NCBI RefSeq assembly: GCF_000169155.1
Contig: NZ_AAWL01000005.1
Location: 1 to 64,000 of the forward strand
DNA: 64,000 nucleotides
Direction of reading: 5' to 3'
Origin: Thermosinus carboxydivorans Nor1
GTDB taxonomy: Bacteria; Bacillota; Negativicutes; Sporomusales; Thermosinaceae
The notes under the pieces are model-generated. The model was not told the origin of the DNA, did no database searches, and saw only the letters and a list, made by a program, of their open reading frames with translations. This document shows, piece by piece, positions 50,743-53,944 of the stretch (position 1 is its first letter; every line of letters begins with the position of its first letter). The translations under genes were made by a program, and so were the position numbers.

Positions 50743-51378
50743 ATGACACTGGCAGTTGCTATTGACCCTAAAATGCTGGAAGTCACTGTTTGGACCAGGG
50801 GTGTCACGCTTGCTAAAGAGGCCCGTGATACCGTGACATTGCTTGCCAAAGCCGGCAAACTGGAAGGTAAATATGTTCAATCGTTTGACAACTATGTTGA
50901 TCTTCCTGACCGTATCAATGTTCCGGTAAAAAGCTACGCCCGGTTAAGTCCGGAACCAATTGAAACTTTCTATGAGTATGAGAATCATCGTCCTGATATT
51001 GTGGTTCTTGCTGAGGAAACATTAGTTAAAGGCAATGCAATTTTGCAAGGTGCGAAACCGGGATGTATTGTCGTCATTAATACGGCGCGGGATCCCAAAT
51101 CGCTGGTTAAGTGGATCGCGCCTAAGGAAAATCTCAAAAACGTAAAGGCAGTTGCTTGCATCGATGCAAACGCTTTGGGCGCTGGTATTACCTTGACATT
51201 TGATGGTACCGAAGGTTCGGGCGATGATACCAAGATCGGTGCCGGCGTAGGTGCGGCTATTGCCGGCGCAGTGGCCAGAGCTTCGGGCTGTGTCAGCCTA
51301 GAGTCCCTGGTAGCAGTTGCTGAGAATAAAGAAGCCGTGAAGAAAGGCTATGAAAGTGTGAAAATTTATAATCTTTAA
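50743..51378 (+). CDS. 2-oxoacid (probably oxalate):ferredoxin oxidoreductase, gamma subunit
   Basis: 211 residues of the PorC/gamma type. It starts MTLAVAIDPKMLEVTVWTRG and has the ending GAGVGAAIAGAVARASG typical of the gamma domain. The usual early GxGGQG motif of pyruvate enzymes is not evident, so it is a divergent gamma. AAAGGAGGAGAAAAA precedes ATG 50743. Gamma contributes to dimer contacts in these TPP enzymes. In the Moorella oxalate oxidoreductase, as I recall, gamma and delta are fused; here they are two genes. Confidence 0.8.
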   Translation: MTLAVAIDPKMLEVTVWTRGVTLAKEARDTVTLLAKAGKLEGKYVQSFDNYVDLPDRINVPVKSYARLSPEPIETFYEYENHRPDIVVLAEETLVKGNAILQGAKPGCIVVINTARDPKSLVKWIAPKENLKNVKAVACIDANALGAGITLTFDGTEGSGDDTKIGAGVGAAIAGAVARASGCVSLESLVAVAENKEAVKKGYESVKIYNL

Positions 51379-51425
51379 AGTTGGGCTTCGGTTTGGTTTA
51401 GCAGATATTCTAAGGAGGTGCAAAT

Positions 51426-51716
51426 ATGTCCAAGGTTTATAAACAAGTGCCGTTTGCGGCGATAGTACCTTCCCCGAAGACAGAAAATGAAAGCATGGTA
51501 ACAGGAAACTGGCGTTACCTCCGTCCGGTACTGGATAAGGGGTTGTGCACGGAATGCAAAACATGCTGGATTTTCTGTCCGGATGCCTGCGTCAACTATA
51601 GCGCCGATGAGGGGATTAGCTTTAACCTGAAGTATTGCAAAGGCTGCGGTATCTGCAGCAACGTTTGCCCTGTCGGGGCGATCAGTAGAGTGCCGGAACT
51701 GGATTTTGATGAGTAA
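51426..51716 (+). CDS. 2-oxoacid (probably oxalate):ferredoxin oxidoreductase, delta subunit (2[4Fe-4S])
   Basis: 96 residues. Two ferredoxin motifs, CTECKTCWIFCPDACV and CKGCGICSNVCPVGAI, bind the two [4Fe-4S] clusters that carry electrons from the TPP site to external ferredoxin. AAGGAGGTGCAAAT precedes ATG 51426. It is 12 bases before the alpha gene. Confidence 0.88.
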   Translation: MSKVYKQVPFAAIVPSPKTENESMVTGNWRYLRPVLDKGLCTECKTCWIFCPDACVNYSADEGISFNLKYCKGCGICSNVCPVGAISRVPELDFDE

Positions 51717-51728
51717 GGAGTGAAGAAG

Positions 51729-52976
51729 ATGCCGATCAAGAAAAGAGGTACAGGTTTGACCGCAGTTGCTGATGCTTGGCAACTCGCCGATATTGATGTT
51801 ACTGCGTCTTATCCGATTAGACCGTATACGGCAGTAATGGCTGAAGTGGCAAAACGTATCGCTAACGGGCAAATGAAGTGCGAAATGGTTCACGGCGAAG
51901 GCGAACATGCTCAGTTTAGCATCGCGCATGGCGCATCGATGGCAGGTGCGCGTGCTACCACTGGTTCTTCGGGCGTTGGCGTAACCTATGCTTTTGAAAC
52001 ATATTCCCCGATTGCGGGCGGAAGATGCCCAATTCAAGCACTCATTGCCGACCGTACGCTTGACCCCCCTGGCGACTTCGGTTCTGAGCATACCGACTGC
52101 TTAACCCTGCGGGATAATGGCTGGATCTATGGTTGGGCGCAAGACGCGCAAGAGGCATTAGACAACAGCCTTATGTATTTCCGCATCGGCGAAGATCCGG
52201 AAATCATGCTTCCGCAGATTGTTGCGATGGACGGTTACTTTGTCACTCATATCACTCAAGAGTATGAAATGCCTGACCAAGAGCAAGTTGACAAATTCTT
52301 GCCGCCATTTAAGCCCCAGTTTCGTCTTGATGTGAACAATCCGGTTATCATGGGTCCGCAGATTGAGCCGGAAATGGGACCGCCGCTTGAGTGGGATCGG
52401 GCCGTTGTTATGCAAAAAGTTAAAGAAAAAATCGTTCAAGTAACGGAAGAGTTTGCCCAGATTTTCGGTCGCAGATACGCGCCATTTGTTGAAGAATACA
52501 TGACTGAAGATGCTGACATGGTGTTCCTTCTCCAGGGTGCTCATGCGGTTACTTGTCGCAGTGCCATCAAGTATCTCCGTCAAGCCGGGTATAAAGTTGG
52601 GATGTGCCGACTGCGCTGGTTCCGCCCGTTCCCCGATGATGCCCTGAAACAAATTCTGCCGAAGTTTAAAGTTGTTGGCGTAATTGATACCAATACTTCG
52701 TACGGTGCGGCTGGCGGCGGCGGAGTTCTGCTCGTGGAAACTCGGGCGTCCGTGTCCGAACTTAAGAATAAGCCGCTAATTCAAGGGTTTACCTCCGGCC
52801 TGGGCGGCGAAACCATTACTCACGAAGAATTCTTCAAGATGGCCGAAATGATGAAGATGACGCTCGAAGCTGGGGAGATTATCCAGGATTCGACTTGGGT
52901 CAACTTTAACGATTACAACCAAGGTTCAGCCGAAATTAATGCCGCTAAAAAAGAAGTGGCTCCGTCCAAAAAGTAA
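51729..52976 (+). CDS. 2-oxoacid (probably oxalate):ferredoxin oxidoreductase, alpha subunit
   Basis: 415 residues. The family motif normally read YPITP in pyruvate enzymes is YPIRP here (Arg31), and the second-site region reads [16 protein letters not shown] (Arg109, Asp112, Phe117). From memory, the oxalate oxidoreductase of Moorella thermoacetica carries exactly Arg31, Arg109 and Asp112 in its alpha subunit to hold the dicarboxylate. The later [16 protein letters not shown] also fits that enzyme. The reaction would be oxalate to two CO2 with two electrons to ferredoxin, without CoA. ATG 51729 follows AAGGAG at correct spacing. Confidence 0.82.
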
Positions 52977-52993
52977 CAAAGGAGGAACAGACA

Positions 52994-53944
52994 ATGGCAG
53001 TAGCCGAAACTATAAAGTCAATCGCTCAGGCGCCTGCAGAGGAGTATTATCTCCCCGGACATCGGACCTGTGCAGGCTGCGGTCCGGCCCTTGCGTATCG
53101 CCTTATTGCCAAGGCGGCAGGTAAAAACACCATATTTATTGGGCCAACCGGCTGTATGTATGTTGCCAATACCAGTTATGCTTGTGGCCCTTGGGCCGTT
53201 CCTTGGACGCACGCGCAAATCACCAACGGGGGCGCCGTGGCCTCCGGGATTGAAGCAGCGTTCAAAATGATGATCAAAAAAGGTAAAATTAAGGACGAAT
53301 TCCCCAATATCATCGTTATGGCCGGTGACGGTGGCGCCATTGACATTGGCCTGCAAGCGGCTTCGGCGATGATGTATCGCGGACATGATGTTCTGTTTAT
53401 TATGTATGATAACGAGTCTTATGCCAATACCGGCATTCAGACTTCGCCTTCCACTCCATACGGGGCGACGACCATGTTTACTCCGGCCGGGCCGGAGATT
53501 CCTGAGGCGAAGAAATTCTTCCCCAAAGATCCGATGGCAATCTTCTGCGGCGGCGGTCATCCCGAAGTTAAGTACGGCGCTACCGCATCGGTAGCTTATC
53601 CGGTCGACCTGATGAACAAAGTCCGTAAAGGGCTTGCTTATGAGGGGCCAGCATTCCTGCATGTGCAATGCCCGTGTCCAAAAGGCTGGACCTTCCCGGC
53701 TGATAAGACCGTTGAAATCGGCAAGCTGGCTGTAGAAACCGGTATGTGGTTCATTTATGAAATCGAGAATGGCGTGAAGAAGTTTAATATTATGCCGAAG
53801 AAGCTCAAGCCGGTTGAAGAATACCTGCAAGCACAAGGACGCTTCAGTCACCTCCAGCCGGAGCATGTCGCCAAGTTGCAGGAATGGGTTAATGCCAAAG
53901 CCCAGTTCCTTGGCGCCGAAGTGACGTTGCCGCCCGTCAAGTAA
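52994..53944 (+). CDS. 2-oxoacid (probably oxalate):ferredoxin oxidoreductase, beta subunit (TPP-binding)
   Basis: 316 residues. Cluster ligands begin at [12 protein letters not shown], and the TPP and magnesium motif is [12 protein letters not shown] followed by [23 protein letters not shown] supplies a further Cys. AAAGGAGGAACAGACA precedes ATG 52994. Last subunit gene of the gamma-delta-alpha-beta operon; a hairpin separates it from the permease gene. Confidence 0.88.

Follow-up and report, generated by a model that had tools for sequence, protein, structure and literature searches.

What the enzyme encoded at 50743-53944 oxidizes, and why a gene for a Cdc48-type ATPase stands directly before it, are the two questions raised by this locus of Thermosinus carboxydivorans Nor1. 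The window, i.e. the whole stretch of DNA that was analysed, comprises 64,000 nucleotides. The first-pass annotation had proposed that four open reading frames encode a probable oxalate oxidoreductase (OOR). The four co-directional frames are present as claimed, and the proposal is supported by the matches to the solved Moorella structure, the NCBIfam cut-offs, the substrate residues and the tree. The span itself covers the four enzyme chains but is too narrow, as the Cdc48 gene (48526-50688) and the transporter gene belong to the same unit (Table 1). That Cdc48 forms part of it had escaped the first-pass annotation. Judging from the sequence comparisons below, we consider it highly probable that the enzyme is an OOR and, jointly, that OOR and Cdc48 are functionally linked.

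The genes from Cdc48 through the permease are all co-directional and separated by gaps of less than 100 bp, so a single transcript is likely. Genes of a two-component regulator lie upstream of this Cdc48-OOR-transporter unit, with no long gap before it. A carrier gene had been said to follow the enzyme immediately, and an LctP-family gene indeed starts 92 bp past the beta gene.

Table 1. Features of the OOR locus, in coordinates of the window
Feature	Coordinates	Strand	Basis
DcuS/MalK-like sensor histidine kinase	45810..47717	+	GAF, PAS, HATPase by Pfam
DcuR-like response regulator	47626..48327	+	NCBIfam NF007750 175.7 bits, below cut-off 262
CDC48-family AAA+ ATPase (N domain, D1, D2)	48526..50688	+	NCBIfam and Pfam
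OOR gamma, 211 aa	50743..51378	+	NF045790, 5c4i_B match
OOR delta, 96 aa	51426..51716	+	5c4i_B match, two [4Fe-4S] motifs
OOR alpha, 418 aa, GTG start	51720..52976	+	NF045791, 5c4i_A match
Arg34 codon (Moorella Arg31, YPIRP motif)	51819..51821	+	5c4i_A alignment
Codons R112-T-L-D115-P-P-G-D119-F120 (Moorella R109, D112, D116, F117)	52053..52079	+	5c4i_A alignment
OOR beta, 316 aa (TPP binding, proximal [4Fe-4S] cluster)	52994..53944	+	NF045792, 5c4i_C match
LctP-family permease	54036..55643	+	Pfam PF02652, 304 bits

Identity of the enzyme

The alpha and beta chains were aligned to the solved Moorella OOR and to PFORs, and OOR is far closer for both. Alpha matches PDB 5c4i_A with an E value of 3.1e-142, the best PFOR reaching only 4.3e-62, and beta matches 5c4i_C with 2.8e-152 as against 4e-74 for the best pyruvate enzyme. 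In 5c4i_B, the single fused delta chain of Moorella, gamma aligns to the N-terminal part (residues 8-205, E 1.3e-57) and delta to the C-terminal part (residues 223-314, E 2.7e-40), and delta carries the [4Fe-4S] motifs CTECKTCWIFC and CKGCGICSNVC. The cut-offs of the NCBIfam OOR models are exceeded by alpha (NF045791, 553.7 bits, cut-off 500), by beta (NF045792, 618.2 bits, cut-off 590) and by gamma alone (NF045790, 243.3 bits, cut-off 230). The separate delta alone obtains 143.8 bits against the fused-chain OOR model, a low score because the chain covers just part of that model.

In the alignment with 5c4i_A the residues corresponding to Moorella R31, R109, D112, D116 and F117 are identical in alpha. 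The first-pass annotation had placed Arg31, Arg109, Asp112 and Phe117 at the Moorella residue numbers. These residues do align with Moorella OOR, Arg31 and Arg109 at the oxalate site included, but the numbers hold only when counting begins at an internal ATG (residue 4); in the 418-residue reading the equivalent sites are R34, R112, D115 and F120. Asp112 and Phe117 are presumably residues of the substrate pocket. Arg109 is a substrate-pocket residue of OOR, and Arg31 of YPIRP binds oxalate and drives a plug-loop mechanism with Asp116, R31 and D116 being the two residues named in connection with the 'bait and switch' of OOR (PMC5020499).

As had been pointed out, alpha has YPIRP in place of the YPITP of nifJ (19640-23185) and of the other 2-oxoacid enzymes that could be aligned. 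These enzymes have Thr at the R31 position, and D112 and D116 are absent from them. R109 is not diagnostic, since pyruvate enzymes also have Arg there; R31 and D112 are, in these alignments, diagnostic of OOR as against pyruvate enzymes. All 27 Bacillota OOR loci, which were found by whole-protein similarity without using the motif, contain both PIRP and RTLDPPGDF. The invariance of these motifs in the larger genome-contig set is partly by construction, because the search patterns contained them.

In a maximum-likelihood tree of alpha with PFOR outgroups, the window sequence falls inside the OOR clade with a support of 100; this tree and the Cdc48 tree below were built by a quick method without bootstrap. 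Alpha thereby clusters with OORs and apart from pyruvate and other 2-oxoacid enzymes, which is the outcome that the OOR reading had led one to expect. The alternative, a pyruvate or other 2-oxoacid:ferredoxin oxidoreductase whose resemblance to OOR is merely general, shares the overall family, the chain make-up and the common R109, yet it is rejected by the tree and the motifs: OOR alphas form a separate clade (support 100), identities in the Bacillota survey leave a gap between 49% and 39%, pyruvate enzymes are without YPIRP, D112 and D116, and the OOR equivalog cut-offs are reached while alpha scores 297 against the PorA model, whose cut-off is 550. We regard this alternative as extremely improbable, and none of the observations speaks against OOR. 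The sequence evidence supports the reading that 50743-53944 encodes a complete enzyme for anaerobic life on oxalate, of the Moorella kind.

Place in the family, chain layout and transport

Within the OOR clade, the window alpha shares a deep branch (support 100) with Sporomusa silvacetica, Lucifera butyrica and a soil MAG. The nearest named relatives, at 84-90% identity, belong to the Sporomusaceae or Selenomonadales, and Moorella-type sequences are about 53% identical; Sporomusaceae alphas in general share just 49-58% identity with other OORs. Among 299 Bacillota genomes, OOR-type alphas of 49-56% identity occur in 26 besides that of the window, the rest being at most 39% identical. The predicted enzyme adds a deep branch to the known OOR family. 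With it, the Sporomusaceae would join the anaerobic users of oxalate, in this case with a genome that lacks acetyl-CoA synthase.

Five further alphas (L174-L178) from three Acidobacteriota genomes (G394, G401, G448) are about 40-44% identical to OOR. They keep YPIRP, R109, D112 and F117 and have Ala at D116, and three of them appear in the alpha tree as a sister group to OOR. No Cdc48 match was found on the contigs that bear them.

The first-pass annotation had regarded separate gamma and delta genes as an ancestral or alternative layout, and the survey bears this out: the two are separate in most OOR lineages and the fusion is confined. Roughly half of the OOR loci in Bacillota have gamma and delta as separate genes, as do most loci outside the Bacillota; the fused form is found in Moorella, Thermosediminibacter, Fervidicola, Syntrophomonas and their kin and in one small second group, which on the alpha tree requires one or two changes. 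As the pyruvate relatives also have separate chains and the fusion is confined on the tree, the split form is taken as ancestral, and the distribution of the two forms indicates that the Moorella fusion is a derived trait. The fused chain, absent in the window, is therefore not defining for OOR.

In Acidobacteriota, most OOR loci (among L053-L109) have delta as the C-terminal portion of a NAD(P)-binding flavoprotein of about 615 residues. One of these GltD-like flavoproteins (L076:6062-7906) scores 514 bits against NF009410, just below the cut-off of 516. This architecture suggests that the OOR of Acidobacteriota may be NAD(P)-linked.

The permease scores 300.4 bits against TIGR00795, below the cut-off of 341. 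Near OOR, an antiporter-like gene (oxalate/formate) was found in 38 of 81 loci and an LctP-like gene in 16, and no locus had both. Four of the oxalate/formate antiporters were checked and all score above the TIGR04259 cut-off of 335. Among Sporomusaceae and kin with alphas 87-90% identical, the operon has one of the two, LctP or antiporter; in two sister operons (L042 and L045, alpha 87-88% identical) an antiporter scoring 407-412 bits with TIGR04259 stands at the place of LctP. The simplest reading of this exchange is that both types would carry oxalate, and the LctP permease of the window is probably an oxalate carrier.

The histidine kinase scores 323.8 bits against NCBIfam NF008298, below the cut-off of 520, and its position is kept in OOR loci L039-L045. 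The DcuR-like regulator is kept in the same loci, and most other OOR loci have GntR-type regulators instead. The DcuS-like kinase is probably the regulator of the OOR operon in Sporomusaceae.

As to the host, formyl-THF synthetase is encoded in the genome. A search for oxalyl-CoA decarboxylase (TIGR03254) gave a best score of 198.5 bits with a cut-off of 739.4, and a search for CdhC/AcsB (PF03598) found nothing in the genome, which is 96.6% complete. Since acetyl-CoA synthase and an above-cut-off oxalyl-CoA decarboxylase were both missing in these searches, the organism is unlikely to be an acetogen.

Three other features of the window were recorded. An SDR/epimerase-like gene (55946-56878) lies downstream of the permease and recurs (48-57%) after the permease in the OOR loci of Moorella and several Sporomusaceae. 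A TPP riboswitch (RF00059, 70.7 bits) is located at 57515-57627, just 5' of a CytX-like thiamine-precursor transporter gene. The best match of a hydroxylamine reductase (hybrid cluster protein) frame at 62081-63400 begins about 120 positions into the model; the N-terminal portion of the frame is possibly absent or disrupted by a frameshift.

The Cdc48 gene beside the enzyme

The Cdc48 protein scores 825.4 bits against TIGR01243 (cut-off 802.65), and CDC48_N, CDC48_2 and two AAA domains were found in it. Its D1 has all the Walker A, Walker B, sensor 1 and Arg finger residues intact; in D2 the Walker B Glu is replaced by Gly at residue 556 (50191-50193). Elsewhere among the OOR-linked Cdc48s this D2 residue is Thr or Asn in Acidobacteriota and Arg in loci L050 and L055. 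The D1 Walker A Lys, Walker B Glu, sensor Asn and Arg finger are kept almost throughout these proteins, and their D2 is less conserved than that of the gas-vesicle copies. The pattern suggests a motor that would be led by D1.

The distribution of the gene was investigated in 299 Bacillota genomes by motif-free similarity searches with the OOR alpha and with the Cdc48 protein. Cdc48 is present in 26 of the 27 OOR genomes and adjoins OOR in each of the 26; conversely, 26 of the 29 genomes with Cdc48 have OOR. The other five Bacillota Cdc48s, i.e. those of three OOR-less genomes and second copies in G125 and G279, are all in gas-vesicle clusters with gvpA-, gvpN- or gvpF-like genes. Fisher's test of the association gives p ~5e-33, a value computed as if the genomes were independent, with kinship ignored. 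Cdc48 is genetically linked to OOR and the two show near-exclusive co-inheritance; we regard it as a dedicated partner of the enzyme.

The idea that Cdc48 is a general Bacillota gene was rejected: it occurs in no more than 29 of the 299 genomes, in each case adjoining either OOR or gvp genes. For the same reason the role of a bacterial Cdc48 is directly testable here. The non-OOR Cdc48s of Bacillota, and most such acidobacterial ones, lie beside gvpA, gvpN or gvpF/L (L149-L153, L165-L169).

The single Bacillota OOR genome without Cdc48 (G019) is 78% complete; its contig ends nearby and a GntR gene is immediately 5' of gamma, and it is not proven that the absence is merely a cut at the contig end. 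Of 199 Acidobacteriota genomes 11 have Cdc48, beside OOR in three, beside gvp genes in five and elsewhere in three; the OOR genomes of this set number three, and all have Cdc48 beside OOR. Among pattern-found OOR loci with more than 1.5 kb upstream of gamma, a co-directional Cdc48 lies at most 1.2 kb from gamma in 46 of 48 non-acidobacterial and 15 of 21 acidobacterial cases. In a set of 30 OOR genomes, seven, all acidobacterial, had no Cdc48 match, and two loci (L061, L111) have OOR without an adjacent Cdc48 and a copy elsewhere in the genome. It follows from these genomes and loci that Cdc48 is not strictly required for OOR.

In the Cdc48 tree, all 43 OOR-linked sequences of a thinned set (Bacillota, Acidobacteriota, Nitrospirota, Methylomirabilota, Thermodesulfobacteriota, Synergistota and one MAG named Proteobacteria) form one clade with an SH-aLRT of 100, apart from gas-vesicle copies and archaeal VAT. 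The clade is set apart by few D1/D2 positions, e.g. Gly397 replacing Ala; clade-specific residues of the N domain, as a possible OOR-binding surface, were looked for in it and none was found.

The pairwise distances of Cdc48 and OOR alpha are correlated (r = 0.82, n = 56, Mantel p <= 0.0005), an agreement that can come from shared descent alone. Cdc48 could be a passive passenger, a chance neighbour of OOR in one ancestor that was transferred horizontally with it, which would also produce a single origin of the pair and correlated distances. We judge this to be quite improbable, as the adjacency persists over several phyla and down to about 50% Cdc48 identity despite the exchange of transporters and regulators, and as virtually every aligned sequence retains the catalytic residues of D1 and the Arg fingers. 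The latter also argues that the gene is under selection.

Another possibility is that OOR itself is not the target of Cdc48, whose task in the operon would be general protein quality control or the regulation of oxalate metabolism. Its place between the regulator and enzyme genes and the existence of OORs without Cdc48 would fit such a role, but a single Cdc48 clade is found at OOR loci only, across phyla and whether the regulator is DcuSR-like or of the GntR type, and no Cdc48 match was found beside the other 2-oxoacid enzymes of the surveyed OOR genomes. This role seems unlikely to us.

The reading that we put forward tentatively, as plausible but short of probable, is that Cdc48 remodels OOR as an assembly or reactivation factor. 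In the corresponding scheme the LctP permease would import oxalate, and the gamma-delta-alpha-beta enzyme with thiamine pyrophosphate would convert it to two CO2, as the Moorella enzyme does. The two low-potential electrons would pass over the [4Fe-4S] clusters to ferredoxin, again as in Moorella. Cdc48, at the expense of ATP, might assemble the multi-chain, multi-cluster OOR or free it from dead-end, inhibited or damaged states.

The enzyme family is already known, and the new element is its pairing with Cdc48. The openly searchable literature, a scope that excludes the original Moorella OOR papers, contains no mention of the pairing, and we know of no earlier AAA+ motor for a 2-oxoacid:ferredoxin oxidoreductase. 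If the remodelling reading is true, Cdc48 would be the first such motor, and a bacterial Cdc48 would have a metabolic role. One may speculate that the link also bears on the production of active OOR in foreign hosts.

Comparison with known systems

The closest known system is the OOR of Moorella thermoacetica (Moth_1591-1593; PDB 5C4I, 5EXD, 5EXE). All chains are homologous over their full length, the tested substrate and plug-loop residues are identical, and the order gamma-delta-alpha-beta is common to both, whereas gamma and delta are fused in Moorella and separate in the window. The regulators also differ, GntR in Moorella and DcuSR-like in the window. In Moorella mulderi (L058) a Cdc48 gene lies upstream of OOR, as in the window.

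The four-chain PFOR of the porGDAB type (PDB 9BT4) shares with the window enzyme the number of chains and the separate gamma and delta. It differs in reading YPITP instead of YPIRP; D112 and D116, both present in the window, are missing from the related sequences that were aligned. No Cdc48 neighbour of a porGDAB-type PFOR was found in the surveyed genomes, in contrast to the window OOR.

With CDC48, VAT and p97 the window Cdc48 has in common the CDC48_N and CDC48_2 domains, the two AAA rings and the intact catalytic residues of D1. The OOR-linked proteins differ from them in being a separate clade with a less conserved D2, in which the catalytic Glu is lost in three groups. The Cdc48s of gas-vesicle clusters are of the same family and likewise lie beside genes that they presumably serve (gvpA/N/F); they fall outside the OOR clade and, unlike the window protein, have intact D2 catalytic residues.

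A gene for an AAA+ motor beside the metabolic enzyme that is remodelled is also the arrangement of the Rubisco activases CbbX and CbbQO. These belong to other AAA+ clades than Cdc48, and for OOR remodelling by Cdc48 is inferred. By analogy, it is plausible, though short of probable, that OOR has a Cdc48/p97-type activase of its own, recruited once and kept across phyla.
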